Assembly: GCA_027002995.1 (NCBI GenBank)
Contig: JALWZB010000123.1
Location: 1 to 39,933, forward strand
DNA: 39,933 nt
Direction: 5' to 3'
Origin: Desulfurococcales archaeon
GTDB lineage: Archaea > Thermoproteota > Thermoprotei_A > Sulfolobales > NBVN01
Position 1 is the stretch's first letter. Each line of letters begins with the position of its first letter. Of the stretch, positions 1,212-6,762 are shown one piece after another. The position numbers and the translations under genes are program-made. The notes below the pieces were generated by a model. It did no database searches and was not told the origin of the DNA. It was given only the letters and a program-made list of their open reading frames with translations.

Positions 1212-1267
1212 GATCAGCTGAGACAGGTTTCTTCATTCTTTTAGTCGTTCCTCGTCTCTCATCATCC
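1212..1267 (-). ncRNA. C/D box sRNA (2'-O-methylation guide)
   Basis: Minus-strand reading: ATGATGA (C, 1265-1259), 14 nt guide GAGACGAGGAACGA, CTAA (D', 1244-1241), 4 nt spacer, ATGAAGA (C', 1236-1230), 12 nt guide AACCTGTCTCAG, CTGA (D, 1217-1214). A TAATAAAC TATA-like element lies ~20 nt upstream. Confidence 0.8.
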
Positions 1268-1307
1268 TTGGTTCCTGTTTATTAGCGGGTTAGATATTTG
1301 TTGTGTT

Positions 1308-1368
1308 GAGTGATGATACGACGGTCTCCTGACCTTCGAGGGGGTGATGTGTCTTCTCTTCACTGAGG
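1308..1368 (+). ncRNA. C/D box sRNA (2'-O-methylation guide)
   Basis: GTGATGA (C, 1310-1316), 12 nt guide TACGACGGTCTC, CTGA (D', 1329-1332), spacer, GTGATGT (C', 1344-1350), 12 nt guide GTCTTCTCTTCA, CTGA (D, 1363-1366). AT-rich TAGATATTTG lies upstream. Confidence 0.8.
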
Positions 1369-1430: not shown

Positions 1431-4400
1431 ATGACGCTTAGGGAGGAAGTTGAGAAGGCGGGTCTCCTGGTCTACGGGCGGGCTTGCCCCAATTGCGGGG
1501 GATTCGTGAGTGATAAACGTTTAGAGAGGGGTTTGCCCTGCTCCTCATGCTTACCTGACCCCCCTGCGGAGCCATCTGTTCATGAGATTTACAGGAGGCT
1601 TAGGGAGCTCGGCACGCTTAAAGCGTATAGGGCGTTGCATGAGGTTACCCGTACATATGAAGAGATCTGTGATTTCTTCAGGAAGTGCGTTGGTAATGAC
1701 CCGTGGAGCATTCAGAGGCTGTGGATTAAGCGAATAGCTAAGAAGGCTTCATTCGCGATGATAGCGCCCACCGGCGTCGGTAAGACGACGTTCGGGGCTG
1801 TCGTAGCACTCTACCTAGCTATGAAGGGACACAAGTCGTACTTCATAGTCCCCACAACCGCCCTAGCCATGCAGCTTGAGAGGAAACTTGAGGAGATGTC
1901 TGCGAGGGCAGGAATAGTCGTTAGGTTTGTTGCGATCCACTCGAAGCTCAAGAAGCGTGAGAGAGAAGCACGGGAGGAAGCCCTAGAGGATCCGCAGGGC
2001 TTCGACATACTCGTGACTACCTCAAACTACCTGCTCCGTAACCCGGATAAGATACTCAAGCACGACTTCAAATTCATCTTCGTTGACGACGTCGACGCCA
2101 TACTGAAGGGATCTAAGGCCATAAACTACGTGCTTCAATTACTGGGATTCACTGAAAAGGACTTAGAACGCGCGTTGCAAGCCATTAAGCTTAAGAGGGA
2201 ACTCGTGTTCAGAGGGGAGAACGCTAAGCTCCTAGAGAAGCTCAATCAGATAGAGGAAGCCCTTGAGCGTAGAAGACGGAAGGTGGATAAGGTACTAATA
2301 ATAGCGTCAGCCACAGGCAATCCACGCGGCACCAGGGTTAAGTTGTTCAAGGAACTTCTAGGCTTTGAGATTGGCGCTAGGCCAGAGTTCATACGTAATA
2401 TCGTGGACACCTACAAGCACCCAGAAGGCGATATTAAGGAAACGATCCTACAGTTAGTTAAGAAGCTTGGTAAGGGCGGCTTAATCTACGTCCCTATAGA
2501 CAAGGGTGTGGACTACGCTATAGAGGTGGCGGAGTACCTGAAGGAACGAGGAGTTAAGGCTGCAGCCGTGCACAGCAGGAACGTCGCAGCCATAGACGAG
2601 TTTGCTAACGGAGAACTTGACGTGTTAGTAGGTGTGGCCACGTACTACGGGATACTCGTCAGAGGTATTGACCTGCCCGAAGTGATCCGCTACGCAATAT
2701 TCGCGGGACCCCCGAGGCACAAGATAAACCTCAGACTAGAAGGCGTGAAGCCCCAAGACGTTCTTAGACTACTTCCTCTTGTTAGGGATGCTGTAGAGAA
2801 TAGTGAGCAACGACGCATGATAGACGCCCACATCGTCAGGCTGAGGAGGTACTTAAGGAGGGCGGGAATGGCCTTAATTCAAGTACTCAATGAAGTGCTC
2901 GAAGGTAAGCGCGAACCAGCAACTGCTGCTGAGAAGGAATTCGTGGAGGCCTACCAGCTGCTCAAGGATCTCCTAACTAAGCCCGAAATCCTTGAAGCAA
3001 TCCGTCGAAACCCCAACGTAGCTGTCTACGAGGAGGACGGCAACCTGTACGTGCTAATACCAGATGCGCCAACCTATATCCAAGCGAGTGGTAGGACCTC
3101 AAGGCTCTACCTGGGAGGCATAAGCAAAGGTCTCTCGGTAGTGATAGTGGATGATGAGAGAATACTTAACGGGCTTGAGAGGAGATTGCGCTGGATGATT
3201 GATGACTTCAAGTTCATACCATTAGGTGAGGTACGTCTAGATGAAGTGCTGTCAGAAATAGACAGGACTAGGGAGTTAATACGTAGGATAAGGGAGGGAC
3301 GAATACCACGTGAAGTGATAGGTAAGGAAGGACCCTTAAGGCTAAAGACGGCCCTCCTAGTGGTTGAGTCCCCAAATAAGGCGAGAACCATAGCTAAATT
3401 CTTTGGCAGACCAAGCGTCAGGGAGTATGGCCGTCTGAAGGTCTATGAAGCAAACCTAGGAAACTATACCCTACTCATAACGGCTAGCGGCGGACATATC
3501 TACGACTTAGTCACGGAGCTGAAGGAGGAGCTACCCACGATCCACGGCATAGTTTGCCGCAGATTAGGCGGTGAGCACGGACCTAGGTTCGTGCCTGTCT
3601 ACACTACGCTCAAGAGATGCAATAATTGCGGTCATCAATTCACGGTCGAGCTGGACGAGCGGAACCCGCGGTGCCCCTACTGCGGATCAACTAATGTAGT
3701 AGACTCCGTCAGGGCTGTCGAGGCGTTAAGGGACGTAGCACTGGAAGTGGATGAAATCCTGGTCGGGACAGACCCGGACACCGAGGGAGAGAAGATAGCG
3801 TTCGACATAACTAACGTGATCCTCCCAGTGAACAGGAACGTGTACAGGGTGGAGTTCCACGAAGTAACGAGGAGGGCAATAATTAACGCCGTGAATAACC
3901 CCAGAAAGATAAACTACGATTTAGTTAAGGCACAACTCGTCAGAAGGATAGAGGATAGGTGGATAGGCTTCTCACTCTCACGTAAATTACAGACGGAGTT
4001 CTGGCATGAGTTCTGTAAAAGGAAGTTAAAGGCACTACTTAAGGCTAAGAGGGACCAGAAGGAGGGTGCACGCATAGACAAAAGAATACTGAATTACCTC
4101 GAGCGGTATGCTAAGCTCTGTAAGGCCAATCCTAAGGAATACAGGAACCTCAGTGCCGGAAGGGTTCAGACGCCAGTACTCGGCTGGATAATAGACGCGT
4201 ATGACCGCCACATGAAGTCAAAGACACTCTTCCTGATCCTGCGGCTTGAAGAGTTAAGGTTGGAGATACCGATACCAGAGGATAAGCGGCGGAAGATACA
4301 CCCAAGTAAGGTCAAGACCGTTATAGCGGAAGTGAAGTACGAGGAGGTCACGGAAACCCAAGTTAACCCGCTACCCCCATACACCACTGACTCAGCACTC

Positions 4401-5348
4401 TACGACATCTCCTCAAAGTACGGCATCCCGGCACCTAAGGCCATGCAGATACTGCAAGACCTGTTCGAGCTTGGCTTCATAACGTATCATAGAACGGACA
4501 GCACTAGGGTCTCGGACGTCGGTATTGGTGTTGCTAGGGAGTACATGAAGGAGAAATTCGGCGATAAGTTCGAGGACTACTTCCAGCCCAGAACCTGGGG
4601 TGAGGGAGGGGCACATGAGTGTATAAGGCCTACCAGGCCTATTGACGCAGAGACGCTAAGGAACCTAATTAATGAGGGGATCATAGAGCCTGTAAGGAGG
4701 TTAACCCGCGCGCACTTTGCTGTGTACGACCTAATATTCAGGAGGTTCATGGCTTCCCAATCAAAGCCCGCGATCGTAAAGAAGGTGAAAGGCGTAGCTA
4801 AGGTGACGGTACTACTTAGTGACGGCACTACAGTGAAGCTTGACCCCCTGAACTTCGAGGTGTATTCCGACGTAATATTCGATGGGTTCACGGCATTCTA
4901 CAGGTACTTCAACGTACGGCGAGTACCTGGGGAAGGGAAGTACGTGATTAGCAGCGGGTTTACGCTTAAGGAATGGTACCGTGAACCCCTACACACTCAA
5001 GCCTCACTTATACGGGAGATGAAGGAGAAGGAGATAGGTAGGCCCAGCACGTACGCTAAGATCGTGGATACGCTCTTTAAGAGGCACTACGTAGCCTACA
5101 TCGCGGTGAAGGAGAAGGGAGGGAGGCGTGAGTTAGGCATAGTGCCACTACCGCTAGGCAGGGAGGTTTACTCCTACTTGCAGTCAGAGTACGAAAAATT
5201 AGTTAGTGAAGAAAGGACAAGGTTCCTTGAGAGGAGAATGAAGGAGGTTGAGGAAGGGAAGGCGAGATATGAGGAGTTACTTGATGAGTTATATGATGAG
5301 TTAAGGCAGTTTAGGATTGTGGAGGGCGAATGCTTTGAGCACGGGTAA
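1431..5348 (+). CDS. rgy: Reverse gyrase
   Basis: N-terminal zinc finger CPNCGG...CSSC, Walker A APTGVGKTTFG, topoisomerase start VVESPNKARTIAKFFG, second zinc finger CNNCGHQF...CPYCG, active site ITYHRTDSTRVS. ATG at 1431 with upstream GAGGTCGG is preferred over the track start at 1419. Confidence 0.97.
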   Translation: MTLREEVEKAGLLVYGRACPNCGGFVSDKRLERGLPCSSCLPDPPAEPSVHEIYRRLRELGTLKAYRALHEVTRTYEEICDFFRKCVGNDPWSIQRLWIKRIAKKASFAMIAPTGVGKTTFGAVVALYLAMKGHKSYFIVPTTALAMQLERKLEEMSARAGIVVRFVAIHSKLKKREREAREEALEDPQGFDILVTTSNYLLRNPDKILKHDFKFIFVDDVDAILKGSKAINYVLQLLGFTEKDLERALQAIKLKRELVFRGENAKLLEKLNQIEEALERRRRKVDKVLIIASATGNPRGTRVKLFKELLGFEIGARPEFIRNIVDTYKHPEGDIKETILQLVKKLGKGGLIYVPIDKGVDYAIEVAEYLKERGVKAAAVHSRNVAAIDEFANGELDVLVGVATYYGILVRGIDLPEVIRYAIFAGPPRHKINLRLEGVKPQDVLRLLPLVRDAVENSEQRRMIDAHIVRLRRYLRRAGMALIQVLNEVLEGKREPATAAEKEFVEAYQLLKDLLTKPEILEAIRRNPNVAVYEEDGNLYVLIPDAPTYIQASGRTSRLYLGGISKGLSVVIVDDERILNGLERRLRWMIDDFKFIPLGEVRLDEVLSEIDRTRELIRRIREGRIPREVIGKEGPLRLKTALLVVESPNKARTIAKFFGRPSVREYGRLKVYEANLGNYTLLITASGGHIYDLVTELKEELPTIHGIVCRRLGGEHGPRFVPVYTTLKRCNNCGHQFTVELDERNPRCPYCGSTNVVDSVRAVEALRDVALEVDEILVGTDPDTEGEKIAFDITNVILPVNRNVYRVEFHEVTRRAIINAVNNPRKINYDLVKAQLVRRIEDRWIGFSLSRKLQTEFWHEFCKRKLKALLKAKRDQKEGARIDKRILNYLERYAKLCKANPKEYRNLSAGRVQTPVLGWIIDAYDRHMKSKTLFLILRLEELRLEIPIPEDKRRKIHPSKVKTVIAEVKYEEVTETQVNPLPPYTTDSALYDISSKYGIPAPKAMQILQDLFELGFITYHRTDSTRVSDVGIGVAREYMKEKFGDKFEDYFQPRTWGEGGAHECIRPTRPIDAETLRNLINEGIIEPVRRLTRAHFAVYDLIFRRFMASQSKPAIVKKVKGVAKVTVLLSDGTTVKLDPLNFEVYSDVIFDGFTAFYRYFNVRRVPGEGKYVISSGFTLKEWYREPLHTQASLIREMKEKEIGRPSTYAKIVDTLFKRHYVAYIAVKEKGGRRELGIVPLPLGREVYSYLQSEYEKLVSEERTRFLERRMKEVEEGKARYEELLDELYDELRQFRIVEGECFEHG

Positions 5349-6665: not shown

Positions 6666-6762
<97 letters not shown>

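Follow-up and report, generated by a model that had tools for sequence, protein, structure and literature searches.

Divergent box C/D sRNA genes with abutting predicted targets in 23S helix 93, conserved as a pair and often found beside reverse gyrase

Results

A divergent pair of box C/D sRNA genes upstream of reverse gyrase

A mechanical scan for box C/D architecture across the window (the whole stretch of 39,933 nucleotides that was analysed, contig C123 of a Desulfurococcales metagenome-assembled genome) returned four candidates. The two that fit the boxes best lie back to back at 1310-1366 on the plus strand and at 1214-1265 on the minus strand, with mismatches summed over all boxes of one and two respectively; the two others are weaker box matches located elsewhere in the window. 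The plus sRNA, whose architecture recurs in 32 genomes, consists of a C box GTGATGA (1310-1316), a D' guide TACGACGGTCTC (1317-1328), a D' box CTGA (1329-1332), a linker (1333-1343), a C' box GTGATGT (1344-1350), a D guide GTCTTCTCTTCA (1351-1362) and a D box CTGA (1363-1366). The minus sRNA is composed of a C box ATGATGA (1265-1259), a D' guide of 14 nt (1258-1245), a D' box CTAA (1244-1241), a C' box ATGAAGA (1236-1230), a D guide AACCTGTCTCAG (1218-1229) and a D box CTGA (1217-1214). Both display the ordered boxes (C/C' RUGAUGA, D/D' CUGA) and the guides of 9-14 nt by which archaeal box C/D sRNAs are recognised, the boxes of the plus sRNA being canonical and the D' and C' boxes of the minus sRNA degenerate. 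An earlier note on this DNA had proposed two divergent C/D sRNAs at this place with about 40 nt between their C boxes; both were recovered by the scan with the guides that it quoted, on opposite strands and separated by a spacer of 44 nt (1266-1309). No open reading frame of at least 60 amino acids covers either gene, and neither sRNA reaches the gathering score of any Rfam family (best sR-family score at most 13.5 bits, for cut-offs of 38-45), their homologues likewise matching no family above cut-off.

Two features absent from the earlier note are the plus D guide, with its predicted site at G2056, and the adjoining reverse gyrase gene. The latter occupies 1431-5348 on the plus strand (ATG at 1431; Pfam domains Topoisom_bac, Toprim, DEAD and zf_Rg) and is the downstream neighbour on the plus-sRNA side. 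On the other side, a run of 22 C residues at 1088-1109, just upstream of the sRNA pair, is missing in three homologous contigs, and upstream homology to one relative stops near 958, close to this run, which could possibly be an assembly artefact or a recent rearrangement. Further along the window, ARAGORN called a tRNA-Ala(AGC) at 6666-6762 (plus strand), with an anticodon unlikely in archaea; judged by eye, GGCTCTTAACCCGTAG resembles a tRNA-Lys(CUU) whose intron precedes the anticodon.

The spacer holds one TATA-like element for each direction, TTTATTAG at 1278-1285 on the plus strand and CAAATATCTAA at about 1301-1291 on the minus strand. Archaeal TATA boxes are expected at such positions provided that transcription of the RNAs begins near their C boxes. 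When the 32 divergent pairs (see below) were compared with shuffled spacers, the TATA-like score had a maximum upstream of each C box, at 28 nt for the plus sRNA (z 6.2) and at 29 nt for the minus sRNA (z 3.6). The z values are inflated because the 32 genomes are related, and on the minus strand another peak, about as high, stands at 15 nt. These peaks lend statistical support to the idea, already put forward in the earlier note, of a shared promoter region.

Two guides pair with the whole of helix 93

The Rfam LSU model detected no 23S gene in the organism's own genome, and a pattern search located a fragment on contig C98 that matches a same-genus 23S sequence at 94-99% and carries the helix 93 (H93) region as TTTAGACCGTCGTGAGACAGGTCGG (G000:C98:1110-1134). 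The fragment covers H93, the 2056 region lying outside it. In the 23S genes of 12 relatives the H93 region likewise reads TTTAGACCGTCGTGAGACAGGTCGG, with a few variants, so that the sequence around A2602 quoted in the earlier note proved correct both in relatives and in the genome itself. This 23S gene is also interrupted near E. coli position 2540 by about 760 inserted bases (G000:C98, about 310-1070). The insert has an open frame of about 200 amino acids, ends about 40 nt before the H93 target and is probably an archaeal rRNA intron whose ORF is of the homing-endonuclease type.

Positions 2-11 of the plus D' guide pair with AGACCGUCGU (2587-2596, E. coli numbering) and positions 2-11 of the minus D guide with UGAGACAGGU (2596-2605). 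Against the organism's own 23S, and against those of relatives, each of the two duplexes comprises 10 Watson-Crick pairs out of 10, free of mismatches and G-U pairs and flanked by mismatches at positions 1 and 12, and in both sRNAs the complementarity lies directly upstream of the D or D' box. The two targets overlap by a single base and jointly cover helix 93. Alignment to E. coli rrlB places the sites predicted by the N+5 rule at C2590 and G2599. Shuffled guides equalled the real rRNA match in just 3 of 1000 trials for the plus D' guide and 2 of 1000 for the minus D guide. The main expectations of the earlier note are thereby borne out: back-to-back targets with one or two terminal mismatches, predicted modification sites near 2590 and 2599, and complementarity of at least 9-10 bp with the genome's own 23S.

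The other guide halves are less clear-cut. The plus D guide pairs with 23S GGAGAGAAGAC through nine pairs and one G-U, with G2056 as the predicted site; in the second family pairing is confined to positions 2-10 (9 bp), and shuffled guides did as well in 129 of 1000 trials, so that the pairing alone is not beyond chance. This guide is conserved in two families, and a similar form occurs in a third. For the minus D' guide no rRNA target was found in the expected register. A stretch of 10 nt at another place in the D' region fits rRNA with a single G-U, a match that we judge weak. Both the minus D' guide and the D' box differ between genera. A third guide against H93, directed at C2606, has been reported in all six thermophiles of PMC4644070; searched in one register and box form, the corresponding pattern AGTCCGACCNCTGA was found in 1 of 31 genomes and nowhere in the organism's own.

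Guides and target have changed together

The guides were sought in 231 sampled genomes from the same class, and the H93 pattern search gave matches in 72 genomes. Five genomes (four of genus g10 and one of g2) carry G2590-C2604 in place of C2590-G2604. In every one of them the plus sRNA contains ACGACGCTCT and the minus sRNA AGCTGTCTCA, with the divergent pair intact. None of the 226 other genomes has the altered plus guide. The altered minus guide was found within a C/D architecture in one more genome of g10 (G174), the 23S of which is not readable; three further matches to AGCTGTCTCA, outside the switched genera, lack C/D architecture and were discarded. Being related, the five genomes represent one or two switches, not five, and trees of reverse gyrase and 23S do not separate these two counts. 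In a same-genus metagenome-assembled genome a second 23S sequence (G002:C44:733-757) has A2590-U2604, as in E. coli, and probably belongs to a contaminating bacterial contig.

A second change concerns family f11, probably the Sulfolobaceae, as judged partly by Rfam sR14 matches. The one 23S aligned from this family has C2596, and a pattern search found the U2596 form in none of its 31 genomes; the G2599 guide is correspondingly of the G-type (CCTGTCTCG) in 26 of 31 and of the A-type in none, with C/D boxes around the guide in the loci read. This switch at 2596 is independent of the G2590-C2604 switch, and the minus D guide co-varies with both 23S positions 2604 and 2596. In f11 loci L151-L162 (about 1500-1800) the G2599 sRNA and a small ORF overlap at the 3' end of the latter. 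Four of the f11 loci were scanned, and in each of them sR14 is found some 200 nt from the G2599 sRNA, on the other strand; as sR14 lacks a 2590 guide, this arrangement is not the pair described here.

Guide conservation or co-variation with the target, a hallmark of archaeal C/D sRNAs, is found here for both H93 guides. The evolutionary events are few, yet in each of them a base-paired position has changed and the partner has changed with it in trans. Because both guides have changed with the hairpin in related species, we regard the two sRNAs as almost certainly real 2'-O-methylation guides of the known class.

The pair is conserved and its linkage is not obligatory

Of the 231 genomes, 42 contain the plus guide together with its box and 124 the minus guide. 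They form a divergent pair in 32 genomes of two families, altered guides included, and one of these genomes is probably that of Ignisphaera aggregans. These real guides might owe their position to nothing but inherited linkage upstream of reverse gyrase, functionally meaningless, their abutting targets being a coincidence in a hotspot; we give this explanation slightly less than an even chance. It draws on the description of helices 90-93 as an archaeal C/D guide hotspot (PMC4644070, available text) and on the position of reverse gyrase, which adjoins the pair within about 0.6 kb in 25 of the 32 genomes (on the minus-sRNA side in two of these). Moreover, nine genomes with both guides, from one genus of the family and from two other families (three families in all), carry the two sRNAs on different contigs, and linkage is therefore not obligatory. 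On the other hand, the pair is kept in six of the 32 genomes with no reverse gyrase nearby and where reverse gyrase is on the other side (G019, G175 and G012, the last at 1.6 kb), and the spacer between the C boxes is held at 34-78 nt in 30 of 32 pairs, the remaining two having 214 and 230 nt.

Discussion

An RNP of L7Ae, Nop5 and fibrillarin that methylates the target at N+5 is established for this class of sRNA. We consider it very probable, from guide complementarity and co-variation, that the locus encodes a divergently transcribed C/D sRNA pair directing methylation of C2590 and G2599, and probably of G2056, with guide duplexes that would open helix 93. We infer that the two genes are transcribed and co-expressed from overlapping promoters and that each sRNA is bound by L7Ae, Nop5 and fibrillarin. 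The assembled plus RNP would methylate the 2'-OH of 23S C2590 by means of its D' guide and probably G2056 by means of its D guide, and the minus RNP would methylate G2599 through its D guide. The duplexes at 2587-2596 and 2596-2605 would together unfold the whole helix 93 hairpin of the peptidyl-transferase centre, and the two RNPs would likely act in turn on nascent 23S, keeping the hairpin open before it folds. As the duplexes meet at U2596 and span H93 from end to end, both could be complete at once only with one pair frayed, which suggests sequential or competitive action.

The same geometry would suit RNAs acting mainly as chaperones that keep H93 unfolded, methylation being secondary; the plus RNA would do the same for the 2056 strand of helix 73. 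We think this rather unlikely. In its favour, the two duplexes span the entire hairpin, and the plus RNA would bridge 2052-2062 and 2587-2596, regions far apart in sequence and near each other in secondary structure, a class of guide proposed in the available text of PMC4644070. The change of rRNA base 2590 is matched at guide position 5, the methylation position, which speaks for modification; it does not decide between the two roles because duplex stability is also preserved.

A stronger reading would make the pair a functional unit of divergent, co-expressed guides acting on one hairpin in order or in competition, since their targets share one base, held together by selection and perhaps tied to the expression of reverse gyrase, such that methylation of the rRNA core and DNA topology would be adjusted together at high temperature. 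This is speculative and, in our opinion, unlikely to be true as a whole. Still more doubtful is that the plus sRNA, or its kink-turn, doubles as a regulatory leader of reverse gyrase, on which L7Ae might act, for instance, by binding a read-through transcript. In most genomes the plus sRNA does precede reverse gyrase on the same strand by about 100 nt, regulation by L7Ae via k-turns has been proposed (PMC5539422), and in Nanoarchaeum equitans the N-terminal half-gene of reverse gyrase lies between two C/D sRNAs (PMC3491384). However, several genomes that keep both guides intact have lost or inverted this arrangement, and on inspection the gap between sRNA and reverse gyrase has a TATA-like sequence that could be the gene's own promoter. 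Finally, although C/D boxes are short and weaker matches to them occur elsewhere in the window, a chance resemblance or non-functional remnant has a negligible probability given the conservation in 32 genomes, the exact pairing and the matching guide changes, and is refuted by guide-target co-evolution.

Archaeal C/D guides are described as fast-evolving, and most guide-target pairs rest on prediction alone. A natural double mutation of an rRNA stem matched in two separate guides is evidence, drawn directly from evolution, for the importance of both interactions. With targets that overlap by one base, the two sRNAs lend themselves well to the question whether guide RNPs compete or alternate on one hairpin, and the pair's family probably includes a cultured type strain, I. 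aggregans. If the prediction is true, methylation of C2590 would be common to archaea and eukaryotes at the catalytic centre of the ribosome.

Comparison with known systems

The two RNAs resemble the archaeal double-guide, fibrillarin-dependent box C/D sRNAs, which likewise have C, D', C' and D boxes, 10-bp guides, the N+5 rule, lengths of 47-64 nt and targets in the rRNA core; they differ in that two genes are here fixed back to back with abutting targets. In a genome that we take to be that of Ignicoccus hospitalis the guides for 2590 and 2056 occur in combination, with no G2599 sRNA linked to them. Both sRNAs described here have a TATA-like motif, unlike most catalogued archaeal sRNAs, of which about 20% have one of their own (PMC7994747, available text). 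According to the available text of PMC4644070, I. hospitalis sR124/sR127 and Pyrobaculum calidifontis sR30 have a predicted target at alignment position C2864, which corresponds to E. coli 2590 because the anchor 2880 in that work equals 2606. P. calidifontis sR30 couples this site with C2880 (2606), whereas the plus sRNA couples it with 2056.

Among eukaryotic snoRNAs, yeast snR73, human U35A,B and Dictyostelium CD23 guide methylation of the equivalent C. The predicted site of the plus D' guide falls by alignment on the position addressed by snR73/U35-type guides, a likeness of site for which we claim no homology to the snoRNAs. Its equivalence to yeast Cm2959 and human Cm4506 is based on numbering and on the sequence GACCGUCGUGAGACAG, which we take to be conserved at this site in eukaryotic rRNA. 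These residues are methylated under the guidance of snR73 and U35 respectively (PMC8817022, PMC5199042, available text), and the snR73/U35/CD23 literature searched, as far as its text was available, yielded no partner snoRNA guiding the G2599 equivalent. For archaea, the available text of the literature searched makes no mention of methylation at G2599, a site that the supplementary list of PMC4644070 may already include. C/D sRNAs 23 and 24 of Nanoarchaeum equitans also lie at reverse gyrase; there, according to the available text of PMC3491384, the gene is split, the sRNAs flank a half-gene and one of them is permuted. The likeness drawn here is one of position.

In view of the methylation of C2590 in eukaryotes and the archaeal predictions in the available text of PMC4644070, the sRNA class, the hotspot in helices 90-93 and one of the two H93 sites are already known. 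As far as could be checked, the novelty lies in a divergent pair that is conserved and has abutting targets, in the double co-evolution of guides and target, and in the reverse-gyrase neighbourhood.
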